Of a stretch of 33,291 bases of DNA, positions 17,103 to 30,867 are shown piece after piece (positions within the stretch are counted from its first letter, which is position 1; every line of letters starts with the position of its first letter). The DNA is from Bacillota bacterium (lineage in GTDB: Bacteria > Bacillota > Limnochordia > Darwinibacteriales > Darwinibacteriaceae). The translations under genes and the position numbers were made by a program. The stretch is from assembly GCA_012520315.1 (NCBI GenBank), contig JAAYOM010000062.1, forward strand, positions 1-33,291, given 5' to 3'. The notes beneath the pieces were generated by a model that did not search any database, was not told the DNA's origin, and saw nothing but the letters and a program-made list of their open reading frames with translations.

Positions 17103-18398
17103 TTGTTCCGTGGAACAGCGGTGTCGAAAGACACCAAAAAAGCAATGGAATTAAATACTGTGGAAGGGGCCTTTGCGGTGGCTGCCGATAATCTGGCAGC
17201 CCCCTATTTAGGTCTGTTCGCCTTGGCGTTAGGGGCGACCCCGTCACAAATCGGTATGCTTACTGCCTTTCCCAACTTCATGGGCAACATTCTGCAAATT
17301 CCCGCAGCCTTGCTCACGGAAAGGCAGAGGGACAAAAGGATCCTCCCGATTATAGGGGGGATTTTGAATCGCTCTTCCTGGCTCCTTCTGGCCTTTCTGC
17401 CGTTTTTCTTTGAGCCCGAGTATAGGGTCCCCATCGTGATTTTGCTGGCCACATTTCGCATTATGGCGGCCAATCTCGGTGTCCCTGCCTGGACTGCTTT
17501 GCAGGCTGGCTTGATTCCACAATCGATCAGGGGCAAGTATTACGCCAATCGCAATGTGGTGCTGAATACCTGCGCCGTTTTTGCCACTATCTTGGCCAAC
17601 TTCTTGCTGCGCTTGAATTTCCCCGTCAGCTACCAGATCATCTTTGTGGTGGCCACGATTTTGGGCTATGTATCTGTCTATTTGTTCGGGCAAATTGCCT
17701 TTGAACAGGCTCCGCCCAAGGAGAAGGCAAACTCGAAACAGTCCTATCGGACAAAAATCAGAGCCTTTACCAGAGAGATTGGAAAACAGACGGACTTTCG
17801 TAATTATGTAATCAGCGCCATTGTCTGGAACTTTGGCATCCACATCGCAAGTCCCCTCTTTGTGGTCTATTTCGTAGAAGACCTAGGCGGCCCGGCAGGT
17901 TCGTGGGCACTTTTCTCCGCTGTCAATCTGGCTTCGATAGTGCTTTTACAGCGCTACTGGGGACGCCTGGCAGACTTCTTTGGGCAAAAAAGCGTGATGA
18001 TGGTCTCAGGCCTAGGCATCATAACCATGCCCTTGTGGTGGGTGATTGCCCCTAATACCTGGTTTCCTTTTATTATTCATATCATCAACGGGGTTTTCTG
18101 GGGAGGTTACAATCTGGCCGCCTTCAACTTACTTTTGGAAGTTACGCCTGATGCTAATCGCAGCGTCTATGTGGGTGTCTACAACACCATGATGGGTGTG
18201 GCCACCGCAGTGGGACCCCTTGTAGGCGGATTTGCAGCTGAGGTTGTGAATATGCGGCTTATTTTTGTAGCCTCATCTTTGGTGCGCGCCCTTGCCCTCT
18301 ATCTTTTTTACCGCAATGTGACCGATACCGGTACCAGGCGCCTGCGTATGAAAGATTTGGTTCCGGGGCAGAAGGGAAGAACCTTTCCGGGGGCTTGA
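17103..18398 (+). CDS. MFS transporter
   Basis: 431 aa polytopic protein with MFS-like two-half architecture; TTG start 11 nt after glyA. Substrate unknown. Confidence 0.8.
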   Translation: MFRGTAVSKDTKKAMELNTVEGAFAVAADNLAAPYLGLFALALGATPSQIGMLTAFPNFMGNILQIPAALLTERQRDKRILPIIGGILNRSSWLLLAFLPFFFEPEYRVPIVILLATFRIMAANLGVPAWTALQAGLIPQSIRGKYYANRNVVLNTCAVFATILANFLLRLNFPVSYQIIFVVATILGYVSVYLFGQIAFEQAPPKEKANSKQSYRTKIRAFTREIGKQTDFRNYVISAIVWNFGIHIASPLFVVYFVEDLGGPAGSWALFSAVNLASIVLLQRYWGRLADFFGQKSVMMVSGLGIITMPLWWVIAPNTWFPFIIHIINGVFWGGYNLAAFNLLLEVTPDANRSVYVGVYNTMMGVATAVGPLVGGFAAEVVNMRLIFVASSLVRALALYLFYRNVTDTGTRRLRMKDLVPGQKGRTFPGA

Positions 18399-18427
18399 CT
18401 ATCCAAAGGCAAAGGAGTGTGTTGGAA

Positions 18428-19666
18428 ATGGTTGCCAAAGGCGCTAATATGACCCATGTGAAAAGACAAAATCGGGCTTCGATCTTAAGGCTGATCTACA
18501 GCGCTGGCGGCCTTTCCCGCAAGGACATAGCCAGGCGGCTGAGATTGACTCCGGCCGCCATTACTGTCATTACAAATGAGATGATCAACGAGGGACTGCT
18601 CGAAGAGGCCGGCGAAGAACATAATCCTGGCAGAGCTGGCCGCAGAGAAATAATAGTTGATATCTGCTATAGTAAATTTCATGCTGTGGGCATCAACATT
18701 AATATTGATTATACGGTGGCAACTTGCCTTGACTTAAGGGGCCGAACTCTTTTTGAGGATCGCTTCAGGACAGATAACTCAAGCGCCCCCGAACAGTTCA
18801 TTAAACGTGTATGGGAAGTTGTGGAAGATAACCTCAGGGAAGTGAAGAAGGACAAGATTGTGGGCCTAGGTGTGGGCATTCGCGGAATTGTCGACAACCA
18901 AAGAGGCGTCAGCCTGGAATCCTATGGATTATGGGGCGAAACAGTAAATGTGCAAGAGATTTTCGCAGATGTTGCCAGGCTCCCGGTGGGTGTGGACAAC
19001 AATGTTAGAAATATTGCCAGAGGACAGTTGTTTTTTTCGAAGGACAGGCCCAGATCATTTCTCCTCGTCAAGTACGGGCCTGGGATTGGCGGGGCATTGG
19101 TGGTAGAGGACGGGCTCTTTACTGGACATAATTATCGGGCCATTGAGCTTGGTCACGTTGTAGTTGATGAGCGGGGCATTCCCTGCAGGTGCAATAGGCG
19201 CGGCTGCCTGGAGACAGTATCTTCGTATTACGCTATCAAAACGGCAGTACAAGAAGCCTATTCGGCAGAACGCACGCCCATTTTATATGAACGAACTGCC
19301 GGGAAAATTGCGAACATAGATCTCGACACGATTATGCAGGCGTATAGCGGAGGGGATGAACCGGTTATTGACATTGTCTCAAATTCGATGCGCCTTTTTG
19401 CCTTGGTGCTCAAAAACGTCGTTACACTCTTGGATCCTGAGAAAGTCATACTCTATGGATTAGCATTTGAAAATGATGATTTTCTCAATCTGGTTTACGG
19501 CTTCATGAACGAAGTTTCTCAGGTCCCCGATCTCAAAAAAATAGTTGTCAGAAGTGAATTTAATGGCCAATTGTCTTCCAGGGGGCCAGCTTCATTAGCG
19601 ATTCAAAACTTCTTTGACAACGGAGGTGTTGTCGCTTACCCTATCCCAGTCGAGTTGGGGGATTAA
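18428..19666 (+). CDS. ROK-family transcriptional regulator (NagC/XylR type)
   Basis: N-terminal wHTH 'GLSRKDIARRLRLTPAAITVITNEMINEGLLEE'; ROK domain with zinc motif 'CRCNRRGCLETVSSY'. ATG 18428 preferred to the ORF-track TTG 18395. Confidence 0.9.
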   Translation: MVAKGANMTHVKRQNRASILRLIYSAGGLSRKDIARRLRLTPAAITVITNEMINEGLLEEAGEEHNPGRAGRREIIVDICYSKFHAVGININIDYTVATCLDLRGRTLFEDRFRTDNSSAPEQFIKRVWEVVEDNLREVKKDKIVGLGVGIRGIVDNQRGVSLESYGLWGETVNVQEIFADVARLPVGVDNNVRNIARGQLFFSKDRPRSFLLVKYGPGIGGALVVEDGLFTGHNYRAIELGHVVVDERGIPCRCNRRGCLETVSSYYAIKTAVQEAYSAERTPILYERTAGKIANIDLDTIMQAYSGGDEPVIDIVSNSMRLFALVLKNVVTLLDPEKVILYGLAFENDDFLNLVYGFMNEVSQVPDLKKIVVRSEFNGQLSSRGPASLAIQNFFDNGGVVAYPIPVELGD

Positions 19667-19680
19667 AGAAAAAAACCGGG

Positions 19681-19707
19681 ATTAATTGGTTAATAAAGTT
19701 AATTAAT
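19681..19707. promoter_or_regulatory. Candidate ROK-regulator operator (inverted repeat)
   Basis: ATTAATT-N13-AATTAAT, perfect 7-bp arms, 3 nt upstream of a -35 element. Confidence 0.5.
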
Positions 19708-19710
19708 CTA

Positions 19711-19739
19711 TTTACAAAAGGGCATGTATTGTGTAATAT
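19711..19739 (+). promoter_or_regulatory. Sigma-A promoter for putative SQ catabolic operon
   Basis: TTTACA (19711-19716), exactly 17 nt, TAATAT (19734-19739). Confidence 0.65.
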
Positions 19740-19759
19740 GTTAATATAAGATTGTGATA

Positions 19760-19808
19760 GCAACATGGGTTAGCAAGTTTGTTATAGATGCTTGTGAGTT
19801 CATGTTGC
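19760..19808 (+). other. Leader hairpin in 5' UTR of the isomerase gene
   Basis: GCAACATG (19760-19767) / CATGTTGC (19801-19808), perfect 8-bp arms, with an imperfect inner helix tagcaag/cttgtga. Confidence 0.5.
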
Positions 19809-19872
19809 TTTTCAATGCAATCGGCAAGAGGATGTAGAGCTGTTACACGCAGCAGGTTCAGGAGGAATAGAA

Positions 19873-21192
19873 ATGCCACAAACAGTAAGGATTGGAGTTG
19901 TCTGCCTGGCCAGAAAGACTTACGATTTCCAAGCCGCGGCAGAAAAGTATGGGCAAACGAGGAGAAATTTGCAGAGCTTACCCAATGTAGACTGGGAGTT
20001 CATCGAGGAACTCGTGATCGAGCCTGAAGATGCCCATGCAGCGGCTAAGGTTTTATCTGCCAGGCATCTGGACGGCCTTGTGATTATCACTGGAACCTTT
20101 CAGCTCGGTCATTTAGCCCTGATACTGAAGAAGCAAATAAACAAACCGGTGTTGTTGTGGGCCTTGCAAGAGCCTCCCTACGATGGCGGAAAAATTCGCT
20201 TTAATTCAGTATGCGGTTTGAACCTCAACGCATCCAACCTTTACAAAGCAGGCTATGATGATGTCTCAACCGTGGTAGGCGATGACATTGACTTGGACTG
20301 GGTTGATGCTCTGAGGATGAAGGCGGCCTTAGAGAGTGCCCATTTAGGCATTGTTGGCTACCGTGCTGACGGCTTCTTTAACCTGGGCATTGATGAATTA
20401 GACAACTTTTCTCACACCGGCATCTTGGTGGATTATTACGAAATTGCTGAGATTGTGGCAGTAGACGTGTCGGCGGAAGAGACCAAGGATTTCTTGGCCA
20501 GGCTGACGGAGGATTTTGACTGTGCAGAGCTTACCGAGGAGCAGAAAGAAAAAGTTGCCGCCCTTTGTGTAAAGCTAAAGAGCTTTATGGAGAGGCACAG
20601 TCTGACCGCTTTAGCCATACGGTGCTGGCCCGAGTTTGCCAATATGTACGGAATATCGCCCTGCGCCTCCATGTCCATCCTCCAGTCGCAAGGCTATATC
20701 ATTGGCTGTGAGGGGGATATTCAAGGTGCCATGTCCATGCTTATCTGCGATGCGGTGGGCGAGGGGCAGACTCCATTCCTGGCAGACTTTTCTCAGGTAA
20801 ATGTGGAAGAAAATTATGCTCTCCTGTGGCATTGCGGCGTAGCTCCCCAGAATTTGTGGGACGGTCAATGTGCTCGCAGCCTTGACACCTATTTTGCCGG
20901 GGGGCGCGGAGTGACAGCGGGATTTGTGCTTAAACCGGGAGCCATTAATCTGGTGAGGATTGATTCTGCTAGAAGTAAAACTCGGCTGTATGTACAAAGA
21001 GGTACCGCGGTGCCTATGGACAAAGAACTTATGGGAACATATGCGAAGGTTGTCTTTGATAAAGACGTTGAAAAAGTATTTGACACAATATTGTCCCACG
21101 GTATTGCCCATCATTTCGCCATGATTTATTCGGAAAAGATAAGGGCGTTTAAACTTTTTGCCAAGATCATGGGCTATGAGGTAATAGAGTAG
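19873..21192 (+). CDS. L-fucose isomerase-fold sugar isomerase, proposed sulfoquinovose isomerase (SqvD/SftI-like)
   Basis: 439 aa; candidate metal ligands E280 (CEGDIQG), D305 (ADFSQVN), H320 (LWHCG), in the FucI/AraI-like C-terminal arrangement; AGGAGGA RBS. SQ assignment is from context. Confidence 0.75.
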   Translation: MPQTVRIGVVCLARKTYDFQAAAEKYGQTRRNLQSLPNVDWEFIEELVIEPEDAHAAAKVLSARHLDGLVIITGTFQLGHLALILKKQINKPVLLWALQEPPYDGGKIRFNSVCGLNLNASNLYKAGYDDVSTVVGDDIDLDWVDALRMKAALESAHLGIVGYRADGFFNLGIDELDNFSHTGILVDYYEIAEIVAVDVSAEETKDFLARLTEDFDCAELTEEQKEKVAALCVKLKSFMERHSLTALAIRCWPEFANMYGISPCASMSILQSQGYIIGCEGDIQGAMSMLICDAVGEGQTPFLADFSQVNVEENYALLWHCGVAPQNLWDGQCARSLDTYFAGGRGVTAGFVLKPGAINLVRIDSARSKTRLYVQRGTAVPMDKELMGTYAKVVFDKDVEKVFDTILSHGIAHHFAMIYSEKIRAFKLFAKIMGYEVIE

Positions 21193-21210
21193 TCTAGCGG
21201 AGGGTGTTGA

Positions 21211-23229
21211 ATGGACCTGATTCGTAAGGAAGACGGCTTTGCACTTCAAATTGACGGAAAACTTTTGATCCGCCACAGCTACGATGATCCTTGCGCCTAC
21301 CTTGGGCAAGGCAGTGAAAGGATCAAAATACACTTTGGCAATTTCAACATTAAAGATGAGATTATCACCCGCATTCCCTTGAAAAACTTTGAGATCAAAA
21401 AACATGACGGCGGCTATACCATTCTACTGTTTTACATCAACAAAAACATTGCCCTTGAAATAGAAGCATTTCAGGCAAATGGCAGGTACCGCCTTGTCAC
21501 CACGGGCAGCCATGATTACAACAGGTGCTGGCTGCGGTTCCACTCCTCTGCAGACGAGTATGTCTATGGGGGCGGGGAGCAGTATTCACACCTCAATCTC
21601 AAGGGTAAGAAGTTTCCGATCTTTGTGACAGAGCAGGGCGTAGGCAGGAATAAGAAGACGATGACTACCTTCTTAGCCGACTGTAACGATGGCGGAGGCG
21701 GCGATTATTGGACTACGTATTTTCCCCAGCCCACCTTTGTCAGCTCCCGCAAATACTATTGCCATTCAGCCAACTGCGAGTACCAGGAGCTAAACTTTGA
21801 GAACCGGGACTACCATGAGCTGCATATTTGGGGAACAGAGTTCGATCTCACCTTAGAAACAGCCCCTACGTTTACCGAACTGGTGTCTAAGCTAACCGGT
21901 CTTTTGGGCAGACAACCTCCCCTTCCCGAGTGGGCCTATAAAGGGGCTTGGCTTGGCATCCAGGGAGGCACAGACGCCTGCCGCAGCAAGCTGGCGAAAA
22001 TGAGGGAGGCAGGGGCCCAGGTCAATGTGATCTGGGCCCAGGACTGGGTTGGCCACAGGTTTACCTCCTTTGGCAAGCGCCTTATGTGGAACTGGGTCTG
22101 GAACAGGGAACTCTATCCTGACCTGGACAGGCAAATAAGGGAATGGAAACAGGAAGGCGTGCACTTCACCGCCTATGTAAACCCCTATCTGGCTGTTGAA
22201 GGCTCTCAGTTTGCAGAAGCAAAAGCAAGGGGCTACCTTGTCAAGAACCGGAACGAAGATGCTTACCTTGTGGATTTCGGGGAATTTCAGGGCGGCATAG
22301 TGGATTTAACCAATCCTAAGGCTTTCGACTGGTTTAGCGAGCTGATCATCACTAATCTGATAGATTTGGGTATTTCCGGGTGGATGGCGGATTTTGGCGA
22401 ATACTTGCCCACCGATGTTGTGCTTTTCAGCGGTGAAGGTGCAATTGCCATGCATAATAAATGGCCGGCCCTGTGGGCGAAGGTAAATTATGAAGCTCTG
22501 GTCAAGGCGGGCAAGCTTGGAGAGATCGTGTTTTTTATGCGGAGCGGGTTTACAGGCTCCCAGAAATATTCTACCGCGATTTGGGCAGGGGATCAAAATG
22601 TAGATTGGAGCCTCGACGATGGCCTGGCATCGGTTATACCGGCCGCATTGTCCTTAGGCATGTCCGGCTATGGCATACACAGCAGCGATATAGGGGGCTA
22701 CACCACCCTCTACGGCATGAAACGAACGAAAGAGCTCTTTCAGCGCTGGACCGACTTTGCCATCTTTACGCCGATTATGAGAACCCATGAAGGCAATCGC
22801 CCCGGCGACAACTGGCAGTTCGATTCCAATGCAGAAACTGTCTCCCACTTTGCCTGGGCTACCGTTATTCATGCCAAACTCAAAGCTTACATAAAAGATC
22901 TTCTGCAGGAAAATGCAGAAAGGGGAATTCCTTTGATGCGCCCCCTGTTTTTGCATTATGAAGACGATGAGAATACCTATGACCTTAAATATCAGTACCT
23001 GTTCGGCAGGGATTTGCTCGTTGCTCCTGTCTATGAACAAGGCCAGACAGTGCAAAAGCTGTACCTGCCTGAAGACGAATGGGTCTATCTCTGGGATGAT
23101 CAACAGTTTAAACAAGGCGTGGTTGAAATTGAGGCCCCCATTGGCCAGCCGGCTGTGTTCTATCGCAAGCATTCGCCGTATCAAGAAATTTTCGCAGATA
23201 TAAAAGGCTGCGGCGCCTGGCGGAAGTAG
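21211..23229 (+). CDS. yihQ: GH31 sulfoquinovosidase (YihQ-like)
   Basis: 672 aa GH31 without signal peptide. Q251, Q277, R290, W293, D394, D461, Y497 match YihQ Q262, Q288, R301, W304, D405, D472, Y508 at a constant offset of -11 (QQRWY sulfonate motif plus nucleophile and acid/base). Confidence 0.9.
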   Translation: MDLIRKEDGFALQIDGKLLIRHSYDDPCAYLGQGSERIKIHFGNFNIKDEIITRIPLKNFEIKKHDGGYTILLFYINKNIALEIEAFQANGRYRLVTTGSHDYNRCWLRFHSSADEYVYGGGEQYSHLNLKGKKFPIFVTEQGVGRNKKTMTTFLADCNDGGGGDYWTTYFPQPTFVSSRKYYCHSANCEYQELNFENRDYHELHIWGTEFDLTLETAPTFTELVSKLTGLLGRQPPLPEWAYKGAWLGIQGGTDACRSKLAKMREAGAQVNVIWAQDWVGHRFTSFGKRLMWNWVWNRELYPDLDRQIREWKQEGVHFTAYVNPYLAVEGSQFAEAKARGYLVKNRNEDAYLVDFGEFQGGIVDLTNPKAFDWFSELIITNLIDLGISGWMADFGEYLPTDVVLFSGEGAIAMHNKWPALWAKVNYEALVKAGKLGEIVFFMRSGFTGSQKYSTAIWAGDQNVDWSLDDGLASVIPAALSLGMSGYGIHSSDIGGYTTLYGMKRTKELFQRWTDFAIFTPIMRTHEGNRPGDNWQFDSNAETVSHFAWATVIHAKLKAYIKDLLQENAERGIPLMRPLFLHYEDDENTYDLKYQYLFGRDLLVAPVYEQGQTVQKLYLPEDEWVYLWDDQQFKQGVVEIEAPIGQPAVFYRKHSPYQEIFADIKGCGAWRK

Positions 23230-23358
23230 ACTTCAGTTAGGGGCAGGCCATGTATAGGAGGTGTTTGCCGAAACGCAGGACAACTGACAGGTGTTCAGTC
23301 TCGCAGGTGTACAGATGTATGGGGGGAGAATGATTGAACGGACGATGGTGATGTTTAG

Positions 23359-23379
23359 CATCTAGGCAGCGCCTGGATG
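23359..23379 (+). other. Intercistronic hairpin upstream of SBP gene
   Basis: CATCTAGGC-agc-GCCTGGATG, 9 pairs (one G-U), no U-run. Confidence 0.55.
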
Positions 23380-23413
23380 ATAGGCAAATCTAGAAATACG
23401 AGGGGGAAGTAAC

Positions 23414-24658
23414 TTGAAGGTTTTCAGGAAGACGCTTGTGCTGTTTTTGTGTACTCTCTTTGTGTTGTCGTTCGTCGGTACTGTTGCAGCACAAAAGGTA
23501 ACCCTTACCTGGCCCTGCATTTGGGTGGGCGTAGACTCTAAGGCAGAGACGATCAAGAAGTTTGTTGATGAGTTTAATAGGGAATACGCAGGTGAAATCG
23601 AGGTCATCATCGAGGAGAACTCTGACTATCAGGCTTATCGGGACAAGTTGAGAACAGCCATATCAGTAGGCCGTGTTCCAGATATCTTTACGATTGATGC
23701 GGATATTCCACTTTATCTGGAAAGCGGCAGGCTCCTGGATCTCACCAATGCCTTTAAGGATGGATGGGAGGCTGACTTTGTCGAGGGAGCACTTGCCAAT
23801 AGCACAGTGAACGGAAGAATTGTGGCCATCCCCTACGAAATGGGGCCCACTCCTGTGATGTATAACAAGAGGCTGTTACAGGAAGCAGGCTGGGATCATT
23901 TCCCCGCAACCTTTGATGAGTTGTGGCAGTGTGCCGAGGATCTCAAGGCCGCAGGCATTATTGCATTTTCCCAAATGACCGGCGAAAATGCCTGGACTTC
24001 AATGCTGTGGTACTCCCAGCTGGTGGTAGCCATTGGCGGTCCAGATGTTTACGATAATCCGAATCATCCCGCTTTTGTAGAAGCAGCAAGGGTTCTGAAG
24101 AAGATGTACGACTATACGACCATTGACGCAGTGGGCGCAGGAGCCGCTGTATCCGGCGGTCATTTCTTGGCAGAAAGAACCGCCATCTTCATGAACGGTC
24201 CCTGGTACATCGGCAGGCTGGAAAGGGAAGGCTCAAACAATATGTATGAACATGTAGCCATTGCCCCTTGCCCAGTCTATGAAGGGGGCGCGGGCAGCCA
24301 GGGCGGTTATATCGGCAACCCGCAGGCGCTTTTGGCCGCAGGCGCAACAGACGATGAGGCCAAGGCCGCTGCAGCCATCAAGTTCTTGAAGTATATTACT
24401 GATCCAGACAGGGTGGCAGAACTGAGCGCAGCATCGGGAGCGCTGTTCTATGTAAAGAGCGGTGAATTAGAATTCGAAATGGAAAGACTGCAGGCTGAGA
24501 TGGTTGAGCAGGTCAACCAGGCACCCTATATTGTCGGCCATTTCGAGTACATGAGTCCTGCCAGAGTTTATAATGAGTTCCCCATGGCCCTGTCCGGGCT
24601 TGTGCTGGGTGAATTGACACCGGAAGAGTTTGTAGAGCAGCTGAACGCCAAGAGATAG
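23414..24658 (+). CDS. ABC transporter extracellular solute-binding protein (family 1)
   Basis: Signal peptide then 'KVTLTWPCIWVGVDSKAETIKKFVDEFNREYAGEIEVII', 'PYEMGPTPVMYNKRLLQEAGWDHFPATFDELWQCAEDLKAAGI'. TTG start. Confidence 0.93.
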   Translation: MKVFRKTLVLFLCTLFVLSFVGTVAAQKVTLTWPCIWVGVDSKAETIKKFVDEFNREYAGEIEVIIEENSDYQAYRDKLRTAISVGRVPDIFTIDADIPLYLESGRLLDLTNAFKDGWEADFVEGALANSTVNGRIVAIPYEMGPTPVMYNKRLLQEAGWDHFPATFDELWQCAEDLKAAGIIAFSQMTGENAWTSMLWYSQLVVAIGGPDVYDNPNHPAFVEAARVLKKMYDYTTIDAVGAGAAVSGGHFLAERTAIFMNGPWYIGRLEREGSNNMYEHVAIAPCPVYEGGAGSQGGYIGNPQALLAAGATDDEAKAAAAIKFLKYITDPDRVAELSAASGALFYVKSGELEFEMERLQAEMVEQVNQAPYIVGHFEYMSPARVYNEFPMALSGLVLGELTPEEFVEQLNAKR

Positions 24659-24667
24659 AACGGACAG

Positions 24668-24690
24668 CCCTTCCCCCTAGCGGGGAAGGG
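24668..24690 (+). other. Intercistronic hairpin downstream of SBP gene
   Basis: CCCTTCCCC-ctagc-GGGGAAGGG, perfect 9-bp arms, no U-run. Confidence 0.75.
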
Positions 24691-24720
24691 CCCTAATCAA
24701 GCTGGAAGAGGAGGCAGGCC

Positions 24721-25590
24721 ATGAATGTAAAGCGAGAAGACAGGGTGGGTATAGCAGTCTTCCTCACACCGGTTTTGGTGCTCTTTACCTTGTTTTTCAT
24801 CTTCCCAATCATCTACTTGATCATAGTAAGCTTTGTGGAATGGTCCGGTTTGGACACTCCAGCCTTTGTCGGTTTCCAGAACTATCTGCGCATATTTAAC
24901 GATAAAGTCTTCATTCGATCCATTAGCAATAACTTGATCTGGGCACTTTGCGCCGGCTTTATCCAGGTGCCTCTAGCGGTGTTGGCGGCCCTGATGCTGT
25001 CATACAGACCGAGGGGCTGGAAAATTTTCAGGACAGTCTATTTTTTCCCTAAAGTGATCTCCGCAATCGCCTTGGCCACCCTCTGGTCGGCGGTCTATAA
25101 CGCACAGTACGGTCTGCTCAACGGGCTGTTGAGAGTGATCGGCCTTGGGCATTTGCAGACCAACTGGCTGGGCACCTTGAAAACAGCGTTTCCCTCGGTG
25201 CTGATTTATTGGCTCTTTTACATTGGCTACTACATGATCATTGTCCTCGCCGATATCCAGGGCATACCGCAAGACTATTATGAGGCGGCGGAAATTGATG
25301 GGGCTGGCCGGATTCGCCAGAGCCTGAATATTACGCTTCCCCTGGCCAAAACATCCATAGTAACTTGCATCCTCTTGGCTATGATCGACGGCCTCAGGCA
25401 GTTTGCAGAAGTGTACATTCTGACCAACGGAGGACCGGCCAACAGGACATCTGTGATGGTGCTCTATTTGTACAAAGAGATGCAGAACTATTCCTACGGC
25501 ACATCTAGCGCCGCAGCAGTAGTGCTGATAGCTATTGGAACTGTGGTCATCTTGACGATCAAAAACACGCTAGGCCGGGAAAACTTGTGA
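24721..25590 (+). CDS. ABC sugar transporter permease (MalF/UgpA type)
   Basis: 289 aa; EAA loop 'YYEAAEIDGAGRIRQSLNITLPLAK'. Confidence 0.93.
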   Translation: MNVKREDRVGIAVFLTPVLVLFTLFFIFPIIYLIIVSFVEWSGLDTPAFVGFQNYLRIFNDKVFIRSISNNLIWALCAGFIQVPLAVLAALMLSYRPRGWKIFRTVYFFPKVISAIALATLWSAVYNAQYGLLNGLLRVIGLGHLQTNWLGTLKTAFPSVLIYWLFYIGYYMIIVLADIQGIPQDYYEAAEIDGAGRIRQSLNITLPLAKTSIVTCILLAMIDGLRQFAEVYILTNGGPANRTSVMVLYLYKEMQNYSYGTSSAAAVVLIAIGTVVILTIKNTLGRENL

Positions 25591-25606
25591 GTTGGGGGGA
25601 TGCACT

Positions 25607-26452
25607 GTGAGGTTCAGAAACGTATCAGCAGGCTCTTTCTTGCTAAACCTGGTAAAATGGGCAGTTTTGCTACTATTATTTGTGTACGCGGTCTTTCCTG
25701 TGCTCTGGCTTGCTGTTGCCTCTTTGAAAACGAACGGCGAGCTAATGGCAAATCCTTTTTCATTGCCGGAAATATGGCAGTTTCAGAATTACAAAAAGGC
25801 CCTTACAGTTTCCGGTATAGCTAGGCTGATGTTGAACTCAGTCATTATCTCTTCCTTGGCTACACTTCTTAATATCTTAATTGCGTCCATGGGCGCTTAC
25901 ACACTTTCAAGATTCAAGTTTAGGGGCAATCAGTTCTTAAAGGTATTGTTTTCATCTGGAATACTTATTCCCCTCAATGCGTTGATGATACCCTACTTTG
26001 TTCTGGTTAACAGCATCGGCCTCTATAACACTATGGGAGGGCTGATCCTGGTTTACACCGCAATTGGCATACCGATTTCCACCTTCATTATTATGGGATT
26101 TATGGCCTCGGTGCCAGACGAATTGGAAGAGGCAGCGATAATAGATGGAGCCTGTTTCTACAAAAGGTTTTTCACAATAGTTTTCCCCCTTTCTCGGGCC
26201 GGTGTTGTAACCGCGGGAACATTCCAGTTTTTAACCTGCTGGAATGAGTTTGTCTACGCTAATCTGCTGACTTCTTCACAGGCGGTGAGAACAGTTCAGC
26301 TGGGGATCCGCTATTTCACCAATCAGTTTGCCACTGACTATGTATCCATGTATGCTGCCATCATCATCAGTATCCTGCCCAGCATATTAGCTTATGTGCT
26401 CTTCCAGAACCAAATAATTGCCGGGCTCACAAGCGGTGCTGTCAAAGGCTGA
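25607..26452 (+). CDS. ABC sugar transporter permease (MalG/UgpE type)
   Basis: EAA loop 'ELEEAAIIDGACFYKRFFTIVFPLSRAG'; GTG start after GGGGGGA. Confidence 0.92.
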   Translation: MRFRNVSAGSFLLNLVKWAVLLLLFVYAVFPVLWLAVASLKTNGELMANPFSLPEIWQFQNYKKALTVSGIARLMLNSVIISSLATLLNILIASMGAYTLSRFKFRGNQFLKVLFSSGILIPLNALMIPYFVLVNSIGLYNTMGGLILVYTAIGIPISTFIIMGFMASVPDELEEAAIIDGACFYKRFFTIVFPLSRAGVVTAGTFQFLTCWNEFVYANLLTSSQAVRTVQLGIRYFTNQFATDYVSMYAAIIISILPSILAYVLFQNQIIAGLTSGAVKG

Positions 26453-26473
26453 TTTGAAGAGGAGTGATTTCAG

Positions 26474-27295
26474 GTGATTAAAGATAAAAGCTTCTTTGCA
26501 GAAAAAAGCAGGGAAATCCGGAGGCTGACTGTGGAATGCATCGGGGATCTGGGTGTTGGCCATTTAGGCGGATGTCTGTCAGTGATAGATGTTCTAACAG
26601 TACTATATTATTCGGTTATGAACGTAGATCCCAAGAATCCATGTAGGGAGGGAAGGGATCGCCTGGTGTTATCGAAAGGGCATGCTGGGCCAGCCTTGTA
26701 TTCTATTCTGGCTGACAAAGGATTCTTTCCTAAAGAAGAATTGTTTACGTTAAATAGGGCCGGGACTAATCTGCCCAGCCATTGCGATATGTTGCGAACT
26801 CCTGGTGTGGATATGACAACTGGCGCTCTTGGGCAAGGTTTTTCCTGTGCGGTGGGAATCGCCATTGGTTCGAAGATCAAGAAAGACAACGCTACTGTCT
26901 ATGCCGTCATCGGCGACGGCGAGAGCCAGGAGGGCCAAATTTGGGAAGCTGCCATGTATGCCGCCCATCGGAGGCTGGATAACCTGATCGCTTGTACTGA
27001 TTATAATAAACTGCAGATTGACGGTCCGACTGAGGAAATCAACACCTTGGGGGACTTAGGCGCGAAGTGGGCCAGTTTTGACTGGTTTGTTCAAAGGGTA
27101 GACGGCCATGATCACCTTGCCATATTAACAGCCATTGAAAGGGCGAAGACAAACAGCGATGGTCGGCCTTCCATGATCATCCTGGATACGGTTAAAGGCA
27201 AGGGAGTCTCCTTTATTGAGGAGGCGGGAGCGAACAATCACAATATGCCCATAACTTCGGAGCAGGTACAAATCGCTTTAAAGGAACTAAGTTAG
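26474..27295 (+). CDS. Transketolase N-terminal (ThDP-binding) subunit, proposed SqwG-type
   Basis: 273 aa; 'LSKGHAGPALYSILADKGF', 'TTGALGQGFSCAVGIAIG', 'GDGESQEGQIWEAAMYAAHRRLDNLIACTDYNKLQIDG'. Confidence 0.92.
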   Translation: MIKDKSFFAEKSREIRRLTVECIGDLGVGHLGGCLSVIDVLTVLYYSVMNVDPKNPCREGRDRLVLSKGHAGPALYSILADKGFFPKEELFTLNRAGTNLPSHCDMLRTPGVDMTTGALGQGFSCAVGIAIGSKIKKDNATVYAVIGDGESQEGQIWEAAMYAAHRRLDNLIACTDYNKLQIDGPTEEINTLGDLGAKWASFDWFVQRVDGHDHLAILTAIERAKTNSDGRPSMIILDTVKGKGVSFIEEAGANNHNMPITSEQVQIALKELS

Positions 27296-27306
27296 GGGGT
27301 GTCGAG

Positions 27307-28239
27307 ATGGAAATGCGTGCCATTTTTGCGGCAGAACTGGATCAAATGATGGAAAAGGACGAGCGGGTGGTAGTAATAGATGCGGATCTATCTAAAGCCA
27401 ACGGAACACTCTTTTTAAGGGGGAAATATCCAGAGAGGGCCTTTGATGTCGGGGTTGCGGAGCAGAACATGGCATCGATTGCCGCAGGCCTTGCCTCTTA
27501 TGGATTTGTTCCTTTCATTACTTCCTTCTGCCCCTTTGCAACCCGGCGAATTTGTGATCAGCTTGCCGTTTCCATTGCCTATGCTAGGCAAAATGTGAAA
27601 ATTGTCGGTTCCGATCCGGGAATCTCTGCCGAACTCAACGGCGGAACACACATGGGTATGGAAGACATAGCCATTATGCGGTCTATACCTTCCATGGTGG
27701 TTTTCGAGCCGGTGGACGGCATTCAGCTCAAGAAAGCGATGCCGCAAATCCTCAAGCATGAAGGCCCTGTGTATTTAAGGCTTTTCCGCAAAAAGCGTCC
27801 GCAAATATTCAATGAAGATTATGAGTTCGACCTCTTTAAGGCCGATGTATTAAAGGAAGGCCGCGACGTGTCAATTATAGCATCGGGAATTATGGTAGAA
27901 GAGGCCCTCAAGGCCCACGCGGAACTCAAGAGCCAGGGCATTGAAGCGGAAGTCATTAATGTTCATACGCTCAAGCCCCTGGACAGCGAGGTAATATTAA
28001 AGTCGGTACAAAAGACCGGCTGTGCAGTCACGGCGGAAAATCACAACATTATTGGCGGCTTGCGCAGCGCCGTAGCGGAAACAATTTCGGAATATTTCCC
28101 CGTACCCCTCAAGAGTGTGGGGGTTCAGGATGTTTTCGGCGAAGTGGGCAGACTGGAGGAACTCAAAGACATCTTTGGGCTTACGGCTGAGACCATAGCA
28201 GTGCAAGCCCGTAAGGCAATAGCCGCAAAAAACAGCTAA
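27307..28239 (+). CDS. Transketolase C-terminal (Pyr plus C-domain) subunit, proposed SqwH-type
   Basis: 310 aa; 'VVVIDADLSKANGTLF', 'FDVGVAEQNMASIAAGLASYGFVPFITSF', 'THMGMEDIAIMRSIP'. Confidence 0.92.
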   Translation: MEMRAIFAAELDQMMEKDERVVVIDADLSKANGTLFLRGKYPERAFDVGVAEQNMASIAAGLASYGFVPFITSFCPFATRRICDQLAVSIAYARQNVKIVGSDPGISAELNGGTHMGMEDIAIMRSIPSMVVFEPVDGIQLKKAMPQILKHEGPVYLRLFRKKRPQIFNEDYEFDLFKADVLKEGRDVSIIASGIMVEEALKAHAELKSQGIEAEVINVHTLKPLDSEVILKSVQKTGCAVTAENHNIIGGLRSAVAETISEYFPVPLKSVGVQDVFGEVGRLEELKDIFGLTAETIAVQARKAIAAKNS

Positions 28240-28256
28240 AGACTGGAGGACGAGCA

Positions 28257-28739
28257 GTGAAAGTAGTGATTGGTTCCGACAAGTCCGGTTTTGTTCTTAA
28301 GGAAGCTGTCAAAGCATACCTCAAAGAACAGCAATACGATTTTATTGAAATTGGCACAACTGATCCAAGATCCCCTGTTCCCTTTTTTGAAGTTGCACCA
28401 CAAGCGGCTGAACTGATTCAGGCAGGGGAAGCGGACAAGGGGATCTTAATTTGTGGAACCGGCATGGGCATGGCCCAGGTTGCCAATAAGTACAGGAGCA
28501 TTCGTGCCGCCTGTGTTGAAAGTGTGTATGCTGCCCGTATGTGCCGCGCAATTAATGATTCTAACATGCTTTGCATGGGCGGGTGGCTGATCGGGGCAGA
28601 AATGGGCATAGAAATGAGCAAAGTTTTTCTGGAAACCGAGTTTACGCAGGGTCTGGAGGAGTGGAGGCAAAAGCACCTAGAGAATGCCAAGAAGCAGTTT
28701 GCAGCTCTGGAAGGGCGAATCTATTTGGAAGAAAAATGA
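28257..28739 (+). CDS. RpiB/LacAB-family isomerase, proposed 4-deoxy-4-sulfoerythrose isomerase (SqwI-like)
   Basis: 160 aa; RpiB-family fold motifs 'GSDKSGFVLKEAVKAYL', 'GILICGTGMGMAQVANKYRSIRAA', 'CRAINDSNMLCMGG'. Catalytic C66/T68 kept, other active-site positions altered. Confidence 0.85.
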   Translation: MKVVIGSDKSGFVLKEAVKAYLKEQQYDFIEIGTTDPRSPVPFFEVAPQAAELIQAGEADKGILICGTGMGMAQVANKYRSIRAACVESVYAARMCRAINDSNMLCMGGWLIGAEMGIEMSKVFLETEFTQGLEEWRQKHLENAKKQFAALEGRIYLEEK

Positions 28740-30363: not shown

Positions 30364-30453
30364 GGAAGGGTGCCAGAGCGGACGAATGGAGCGGTCTTGA
30401 AAACCGTCGAGGGTTTGCGCCCTCCGTGGGTTCAAATCCCACCCCTTCCGCCA
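30364..30453 (+). tRNA. tRNA-Ser (anticodon UGA), CCA encoded
   Basis: GGAAGGG/CCCTTCC acceptor arms, anticodon loop around TTGAAAA (TGA), long variable arm, T-loop GGGTTCAAATCCC, discriminator G plus CCA. Confidence 0.93.
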
Positions 30454-30471
30454 TTTTTTGGAGTGTTATTA

Positions 30472-30867
30472 ATGAAATCGAAAACAAAAGTTAAAGGAGA
30501 TTTCATTCTAATTGTCGTAATACTACTTATGGGCTTAGGTACCCTTGCTTATAACCGCATTACAGCGACAAAACAGGGTTTTGGCACAAGGGTTCTCATT
30601 GAGGTTGAAGGTCAAGTCATTAACGAGTTCGATCTTTCAGTGAACATGTCGCCGCTCCGCATTGAAACTAAGCATGGATACAATGTCGTTGAGATTGCTG
30701 ATGGACAAGTTAGAGTGTCTGAAGCAGACTGCCCCGATCTTTTATGCGTGCATACTGGCTGGCGGCAGCATGCAGGGCAGGTAATAGTCTGTTTACCTCA
30801 CTATTTTGTGGTAAGGATTGTTGGTGACGAACACGATCAGGGGAATTTGGATGGCTTTACCTATTAA
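30472..30867 (+). CDS. NusG domain II-containing small membrane/secreted protein
   Basis: N-terminal TM (DFILIVVILLMGLGTLAY), 'VRVSEADCPDLLCVHTGWRQHAGQVIVCLPHYFVVRIV'. The ORF-track start lies inside the tRNA, so ATG 30472 is used. Confidence 0.8.
   Translation: MKSKTKVKGDFILIVVILLMGLGTLAYNRITATKQGFGTRVLIEVEGQVINEFDLSVNMSPLRIETKHGYNVVEIADGQVRVSEADCPDLLCVHTGWRQHAGQVIVCLPHYFVVRIVGDEHDQGNLDGFTY

Follow-up and report, generated by a model that had tools for sequence, protein, structure and literature searches.

Nine adjacent genes in the draft genome of a member of the Bacillota (Limnochordia; Darwinibacteriaceae) raise the question of whether they degrade sulfoquinovose (SQ), an abundant plant sulfur-sugar, and if so by which route. 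They lie on contig JAAYOM010000062.1, whose entire 33,291 nucleotides are the window analyzed here (contig C117 of a genome of 2.33 Mb in 142 contigs, 88% complete); the remainder of this genome was searched family by family. On the basis of sequence comparisons, we consider it very probable that the cluster is an SQ catabolic operon of the sulfo-transketolase (sulfo-TK) type, equipped with an ATP-binding cassette (ABC) importer.

Gene content and conservation of the cluster

The cluster spans positions 18395-28739 and comprises the following genes:

18395-19666, + strand: ROK-family transcriptional regulator (PF00480 plus helix-turn-helix)
19873-21192, + strand: putative SQ to sulfofructose isomerase, SqvD/SftI-like (Fucose_iso_C, SftI model, fold, clade)
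21211-23229, + strand: glycoside hydrolase family 31 (GH31) sulfoquinovosidase, YihQ (PRK10426/YihQ model, match to E. coli YihQ 5AED)
23414-24658, + strand: ABC importer solute-binding protein (PF13416/PF01547)
24721-25590, + strand: ABC importer permease A (PF00528)
25592-26452, + strand: ABC importer permease B (PF00528)
26474-27295, + strand: putative sulfofructose transketolase N-terminal subunit, SqwG-like (PF00456, Transketolase_N)
27307-28239, + strand: putative sulfofructose transketolase C-terminal subunit, SqwH-like (PF02779/PF02780, Transket_pyr and Transketolase_C)
28257-28739, + strand: RpiB-family isomerase, SqwI-like (LacAB_rpiB; residues, clade, fold)

All nine genes are on the + strand, separated in order by 206, 18, 184, 62, 1, 21, 11 and 17 bp, and Pfam and NCBIfam profile searches confirmed the family of each. 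An earlier note on this DNA had described nine co-directional genes with short gaps and had assigned their families, and both descriptions were borne out (gaps of 1-206 bp; all nine families), as was its statement that the cluster contains no gene of the sulfo-Embden-Meyerhof-Parnas (sulfo-EMP), sulfo-transaldolase (sulfo-TAL), sulfo-Entner-Doudoroff or SQ monooxygenase routes. The arrangement recurs in two related metagenome-assembled genomes (MAGs). One locus (L054) has all nine genes in the same order and with the same flanks, while the other (L106), on a cut contig, has eight of the nine in the same order, encoding proteins 82-95% identical to those of the window. The ratio of nonsynonymous to synonymous substitution rates (dN/dS) between the window and L106 orthologues is 0.04-0.09, indicative of strong purifying selection. 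The recurring order and this selection argue that the cluster is not a chance assembly, and the shared flanks in L054 suggest that it is chromosomal and vertically inherited in the lineage.

In the pathway that these genes would encode, the importer (solute-binding protein and two permeases, with an ATPase supplied from elsewhere) would take up SQ or sulfoquinovosyl-glycerol, and the YihQ-type GH31 enzyme would release SQ, which the SqvD-like isomerase would convert to 6-deoxy-6-sulfofructose. The split transketolase would then transfer C1-C2 of sulfofructose to glyceraldehyde-3-phosphate, giving xylulose-5-phosphate and 4-deoxy-4-sulfoerythrose. Following isomerization of the latter to 4-deoxy-4-sulfoerythrulose by the RpiB-like protein, the same transketolase would take a second C2 unit and release sulfoacetaldehyde. 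The ROK protein is a probable local repressor of the operon, acting until SQ or a derivative is present.

Signatures of the catalytic enzymes

The GH31 protein scored 963 bits against the NCBIfam PRK10426/YihQ model (cut-off 553) and matched E. coli YihQ (5AED) over its whole length (E = 1.3e-262). In E. coli numbering, anchored on D472, the sulfonate-binding and catalytic residues Q262, Q288, R301, W304, Y508, D405 and D472 are all present. In approximately half of the YihQ-like proteins adjoining related isomerases, the sulfonate-binding R301 is replaced by Q (e.g., FGKQLMWNW; L056, L059, L060, L062, L064, L069, L075, L096, L107 and others), and judging from this substitution these proteins may act on a different glycoside or sulfosugar.

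The best family model for the isomerase was NCBIfam SftI, with a score of 202 bits that is below the cut-off of 700. The isomerase of the Ruminiclostridium papyrosolvens sulfo-TK/TAL cluster likewise falls below it, at 204 bits, suggesting that the cut-off excludes this whole branch of isomerases. A PDB sequence search gave a weak arabinose-isomerase match only, and profile and fold searches placed the protein in the AraA/FucI fold (AlphaFold model pLDDT 94, TM 0.86). Residues E280, D305 and H413 are invariant across 42 homologues and, by analogy with FucI, are likely the metal ligands. In a homologue scan covering one genome per species, the clade of isomerases 48-74% identical to the window protein was found in Clostridia, Spirochaetes and Asgard MAGs, mostly beside YihQ genes.

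The sulfofructose transketolase of Faecalicatena has S383 replaced by A and H466 by D (Borusak et al.; PMC11659671). The signature sought was a change from RSFHR to RAFDR, of which all positions but R356 and F434 were assigned by formal numbering. The C-terminal subunit from the window aligns with A31 at position 383, D103 at 466 and R161 at 525. Among SQ-linked C-terminal subunits, A383 and D466 were each present in 21 of 22; transketolase homologues sampled from other genomes have S383 (28 of 29) and H466 (27 of 29), the pair also seen in 6YAK. In the tree of C-terminal subunits, the window sequence groups with those of L106, L054 and L055 (99), and this group is nested within a Clostridial SQ set of 7 rows (SH-aLRT 99); the long-branched SQ-linked row L104 is an exception and falls outside that set. 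The N-terminal subunit is 60-88% identical to homologues in Clostridial SQ clusters. A full-length transketolase is encoded separately, on contig C107 of the same genome. A second split transketolase occurs on contig C36 (L195, 16049-17838), its subunits 57% and 51% identical to the window pair, in an inositol-like operon whose other genes, named by eye, include IolB/IolD-like and PGK-like ones; genome G051 (L199) has a similar arrangement. It combines S383 with D466, indicating that D466 alone is not specific. This enzyme may belong to another pathway and act on unphosphorylated substrates; it was rejected as an alternative to the cluster pair because of its inositol-like operon and S383.

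The RpiB-like protein has the RpiB fold (TMt 0.94 to 3HE8) and keeps the C66/T68 active-site loop, with K in place of H10, I in place of H99 and no GGR phosphate motif. H10, H99 and GGR are absent from all 27 SQ-linked homologues, and the comparison RpiBs have H10 and GGR in all 32 cases and H99 in 27. In RpiB these residues serve sugar ring opening and phosphate binding, and their loss would be expected for 4-deoxy-4-sulfoerythrose, as this substrate has neither a phosphate nor an O4 for ring closure. A tree separates SQ-linked from comparison RpiBs cleanly (support 100), with the window protein in the SQ-linked clade, and an ordinary housekeeping RpiB is encoded on contig C100 of the same genome. 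SqwI-like genes were also seen near SQ isomerase and YihQ genes at five loci (L060, L062, L094, L100 and L102) with no transketolase gene within the stretches examined, suggesting that in these cases the transketolase may be encoded elsewhere.

The earlier note had named two outcomes that would speak against its proposal, and at the level of sequence neither was observed. The isomerase does not match the models of true L-arabinose or L-fucose isomerases (AraA 32 bits against a cut-off of 622, and no FucI match), and both the transketolase and the RpiB-like protein fall among SQ-linked homologues rather than among housekeeping enzymes. Gene content, residues and phylogeny agree, and strongly support placing the cluster, by its core genes, in the known sulfo-TK family, with its reactions assigned from homologues.

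Known pathways, the terminal step and alternative readings

The sulfo-TK pathway of Clostridium sp. MSTE9 comprises SqvD, SqwGH, SqwI, SqwF and SqwE (Liu et al., 2021, as outlined in PMC9594981 and PMC12890257). MSTE9 and the window have in common a clustered YihQ, FucI-like isomerase, split transketolase and RpiB-family isomerase, whereas SqwF, SqwE and SqvB (DUF4867) are not in the window cluster and no orthologue of them was found in the draft genome. Sulfo-TK clusters without DUF4867 are already known (PMC11968277). In R. papyrosolvens and other Clostridia, the same enzyme set as in the window lies beside SqwF-like reductases. The gene set of R. papyrosolvens C7 (L061) matches that described for the SQ-induced bifurcated cluster of Faecalicatena sp. 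DSM22707 (PMC11659671), a type that shares transketolase A383/D466 and an ABC importer with the window. The L061 core proteins are 48-60% identical to those of the window (ROK 39%), and L061 has in addition two transaldolases, a glycerol dehydrogenase, a dihydroxyacetone kinase, an SqwF-like alcohol dehydrogenase (ADH), an EamA transporter and SqvB. The sister locus L055 has the window's set together with SqvB, TauE and, two genes after SqwI, an SqwF-like ADH (57% identical to the L063 SqwF-like protein). A sulfoacetate-ending variant (SqwD, SqwKL) occurs in Spirochaetes, Firmicutes and Tenericutes (PMC12890257) and shares the core enzymes; in Spirochaete loci such as L109, an aldehyde dehydrogenase and a CoA ligase follow SqwI. 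The sulfo-TAL pathway of Priestia megaterium/aryabhattai has YihQ and a FucI-like SQ isomerase in common with the window, but the window cluster lacks a transaldolase and a sulfolactaldehyde (SLA) reductase and has the transketolase/RpiB-like pair. No PF00923 match to a sulfo-TAL transaldolase (SqvA/SftT) was found among the scanned proteins of the cluster and its flanks, and no other open reading frame (ORF) there fits.

In sulfo-TK, the transketolase acts on sulfofructose and then on sulfoerythrulose, yielding sulfoacetaldehyde (C2), which is converted to isethionate (SqwF) or to sulfoacetate (SqwD, SqwKL) (PMC9594981; PMC12890257). The sulfo-TK route with an ABC importer proposed in the earlier note is well supported, but its account of this last part does not stand. 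It had let the second transketolase step yield SLA, which is wrong, as the sulfo-TK product is sulfoacetaldehyde (PMC9594981; PMC12890257). 2,3-Dihydroxypropane-1-sulfonate (DHPS), which it had listed among the compounds to look for, is not an expected product either, since SLA and DHPS belong to sulfo-TAL/EMP. It had also included SqwF in the route; no SqwF orthologue is present in the cluster and none was found elsewhere in the draft genome.

Several observations weigh against a sulfo-TK operon at this locus. The cluster has no SqwF, SqwE, SqwD, exporter or DUF4867 gene, and it also lacks SqwKL, which was not searched for genome-wide. When SqwF-like ADHs were sought, the best iron-type ADH (Fe-ADH) of the genome reached 36% identity and those of the sister MAGs G399 and G401, both incomplete drafts, at most 32%; the same search found orthologues of 57-59% in the control genomes of L055 and L057. 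Searches of the genome and of these sister MAGs (three incomplete drafts) turned up no SqwD, and the draft genome gave no above-cut-off match to the TauE exporter. DUF4867 was also not found in the draft genome, although its absence is weak evidence because the search had no positive control, the control genomes giving no match either. In addition, the MSTE9 enzymes were likened to those of the window by description, not by direct sequence comparison. Finally, isomerase homologues with no nearby YihQ gene (L122, L131) outscore the window clade on the SftI model. The SftI score was therefore rejected as proof of SQ specificity, which rests instead on context.

Other candidates for the terminal step were considered and rejected. 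The genome has five Fe-ADH genes, none of them an SqwF orthologue; the best (C105) belongs to a sugar/polyol operon, and another (C52), a stand-alone gene conserved in the two sister MAGs, adjoins a MATE gene. Xsc candidates in the draft genome gave matches below cut-off only. The sole glycyl-radical enzyme (C53) reads by its sequence as a probable pyruvate formate-lyase, its gene being followed by an activase-like gene. We treated the sulfoacetaldehyde module as accessory and non-defining, given that it varies among known clusters (SqwF/E or SqwD/KL), and since all three genomes are drafts, the missing module was not taken to indicate a new pathway. It is possible, though on balance doubtful, that the lineage represented by the window and the L054 and L106 MAGs runs the sulfo-TK core without known terminal modules, with sulfoacetaldehyde either handled by a non-orthologous, unrecognised enzyme (e.g., the C52 Fe-ADH beside the MATE gene) or excreted as such.

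A bifurcated sulfo-TK/sulfo-TAL pathway as in Faecalicatena, in which a transaldolase yielding SLA accompanies the transketolase route, would be in keeping with the relatives that share the same core and have an SqvA-type transaldolase in the cluster (L057, L058, L061). We consider it very unlikely here, as no transaldolase gene is present in the window cluster or in the examined stretches of L054, L055 and L106 (no search for one was made elsewhere in the genome). Marginally less probable still is the degradation of another sulfosugar, such as an SQ isomer, by the same chemistry. The specificities of the isomerase and the transporter are predictions, and the R301Q substitution in about half of the YihQ-like proteins of related loci would allow for such a substrate, but the window YihQ retains Q262, Q288, R301, W304 and Y508 and matches the E. 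coli enzyme over its whole length.

The least probable of these readings, and one already contradicted, is a generic operon for unsulfonated sugars, composed of an alpha-glucosidase, an arabinose/fucose-type isomerase and pentose-phosphate enzymes. This is how the NCBIfam product labels would read ('alpha-glucosidase', 'transketolase', 'ribose-5-phosphate isomerase'), and the earlier note had correctly anticipated that automated annotation would see generic sugar metabolism. The YihQ residues, A383/D466 in the transketolase, the loss of phosphate and ring-opening residues in the RpiB-like protein, both trees, and the separate housekeeping transketolase and RpiB in the genome all argue against it.

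Importer, flanking genes and related loci

Within related Clostridial sulfo-TK clusters, homologues of the solute-binding protein are 48-93% identical to that of the window, those of permease A 60-95% and those of permease B 59-90%. No importer ATPase gene is present within the cluster. ABC importers adjoining SQ genes are already known (PMC11659671; PMC13219744). The related loci L054, L055, L057, L061 and L063 likewise encode ROK regulators. The exact start codon of the ROK ORF is uncertain, and the ORF overlaps the stop of the upstream major facilitator superfamily (MFS) transporter gene (17103-18398) by 4 bp; an MFS gene is adjacent in L054 too, but not in L055. A scan of the intergenic gaps of the cluster for inverted repeats and promoter patterns revealed nothing notable. 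Besides the MFS gene, the upstream flank contains an asparaginyl/aspartyl-type tRNA synthetase gene and a serine hydroxymethyltransferase-like gene. Downstream are a seryl-tRNA-synthetase-like gene and, just 3′ of it, a tRNA-Ser (tga) at 30364-30453, within which the listed ORF 30370-30867 starts.

Isomerases 53-55% identical to that of the window were found on contigs assigned to Asgard archaea, namely Lokiarchaeota (L070, L107, L110, L113) and Sigynarchaeota (L077, L111), although binning error is possible. Most of these loci have a YihQ-like GH31 gene (791 bits in L113, cut-off 553) and an SqvA-type transaldolase gene beside the isomerase, and L107 and L111 also have an SLA-reductase-like gene. 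By their gene content, the Asgard-assigned loci would represent a sulfo-TAL-like cluster. A 2026 review lists no characterised SQ pathway in archaea (PMC12890257), and our literature search on SQ degradation in Asgard archaea returned nothing relevant.

The locus would extend the known carriers of sulfo-TK to an uncultured anaerobic lineage of Bacillota. It also provides two markers for annotation, namely A383/D466 in the transketolase and an RpiB-like protein in which H10, H99 and GGR are missing. The residue pattern of the latter fits a tetrose that carries no phosphate and for which ring closure through O4 is impossible, and it offers a handle on SqwI, an enzyme whose direct measurement has been hampered by spontaneous isomerisation (PMC9594981).

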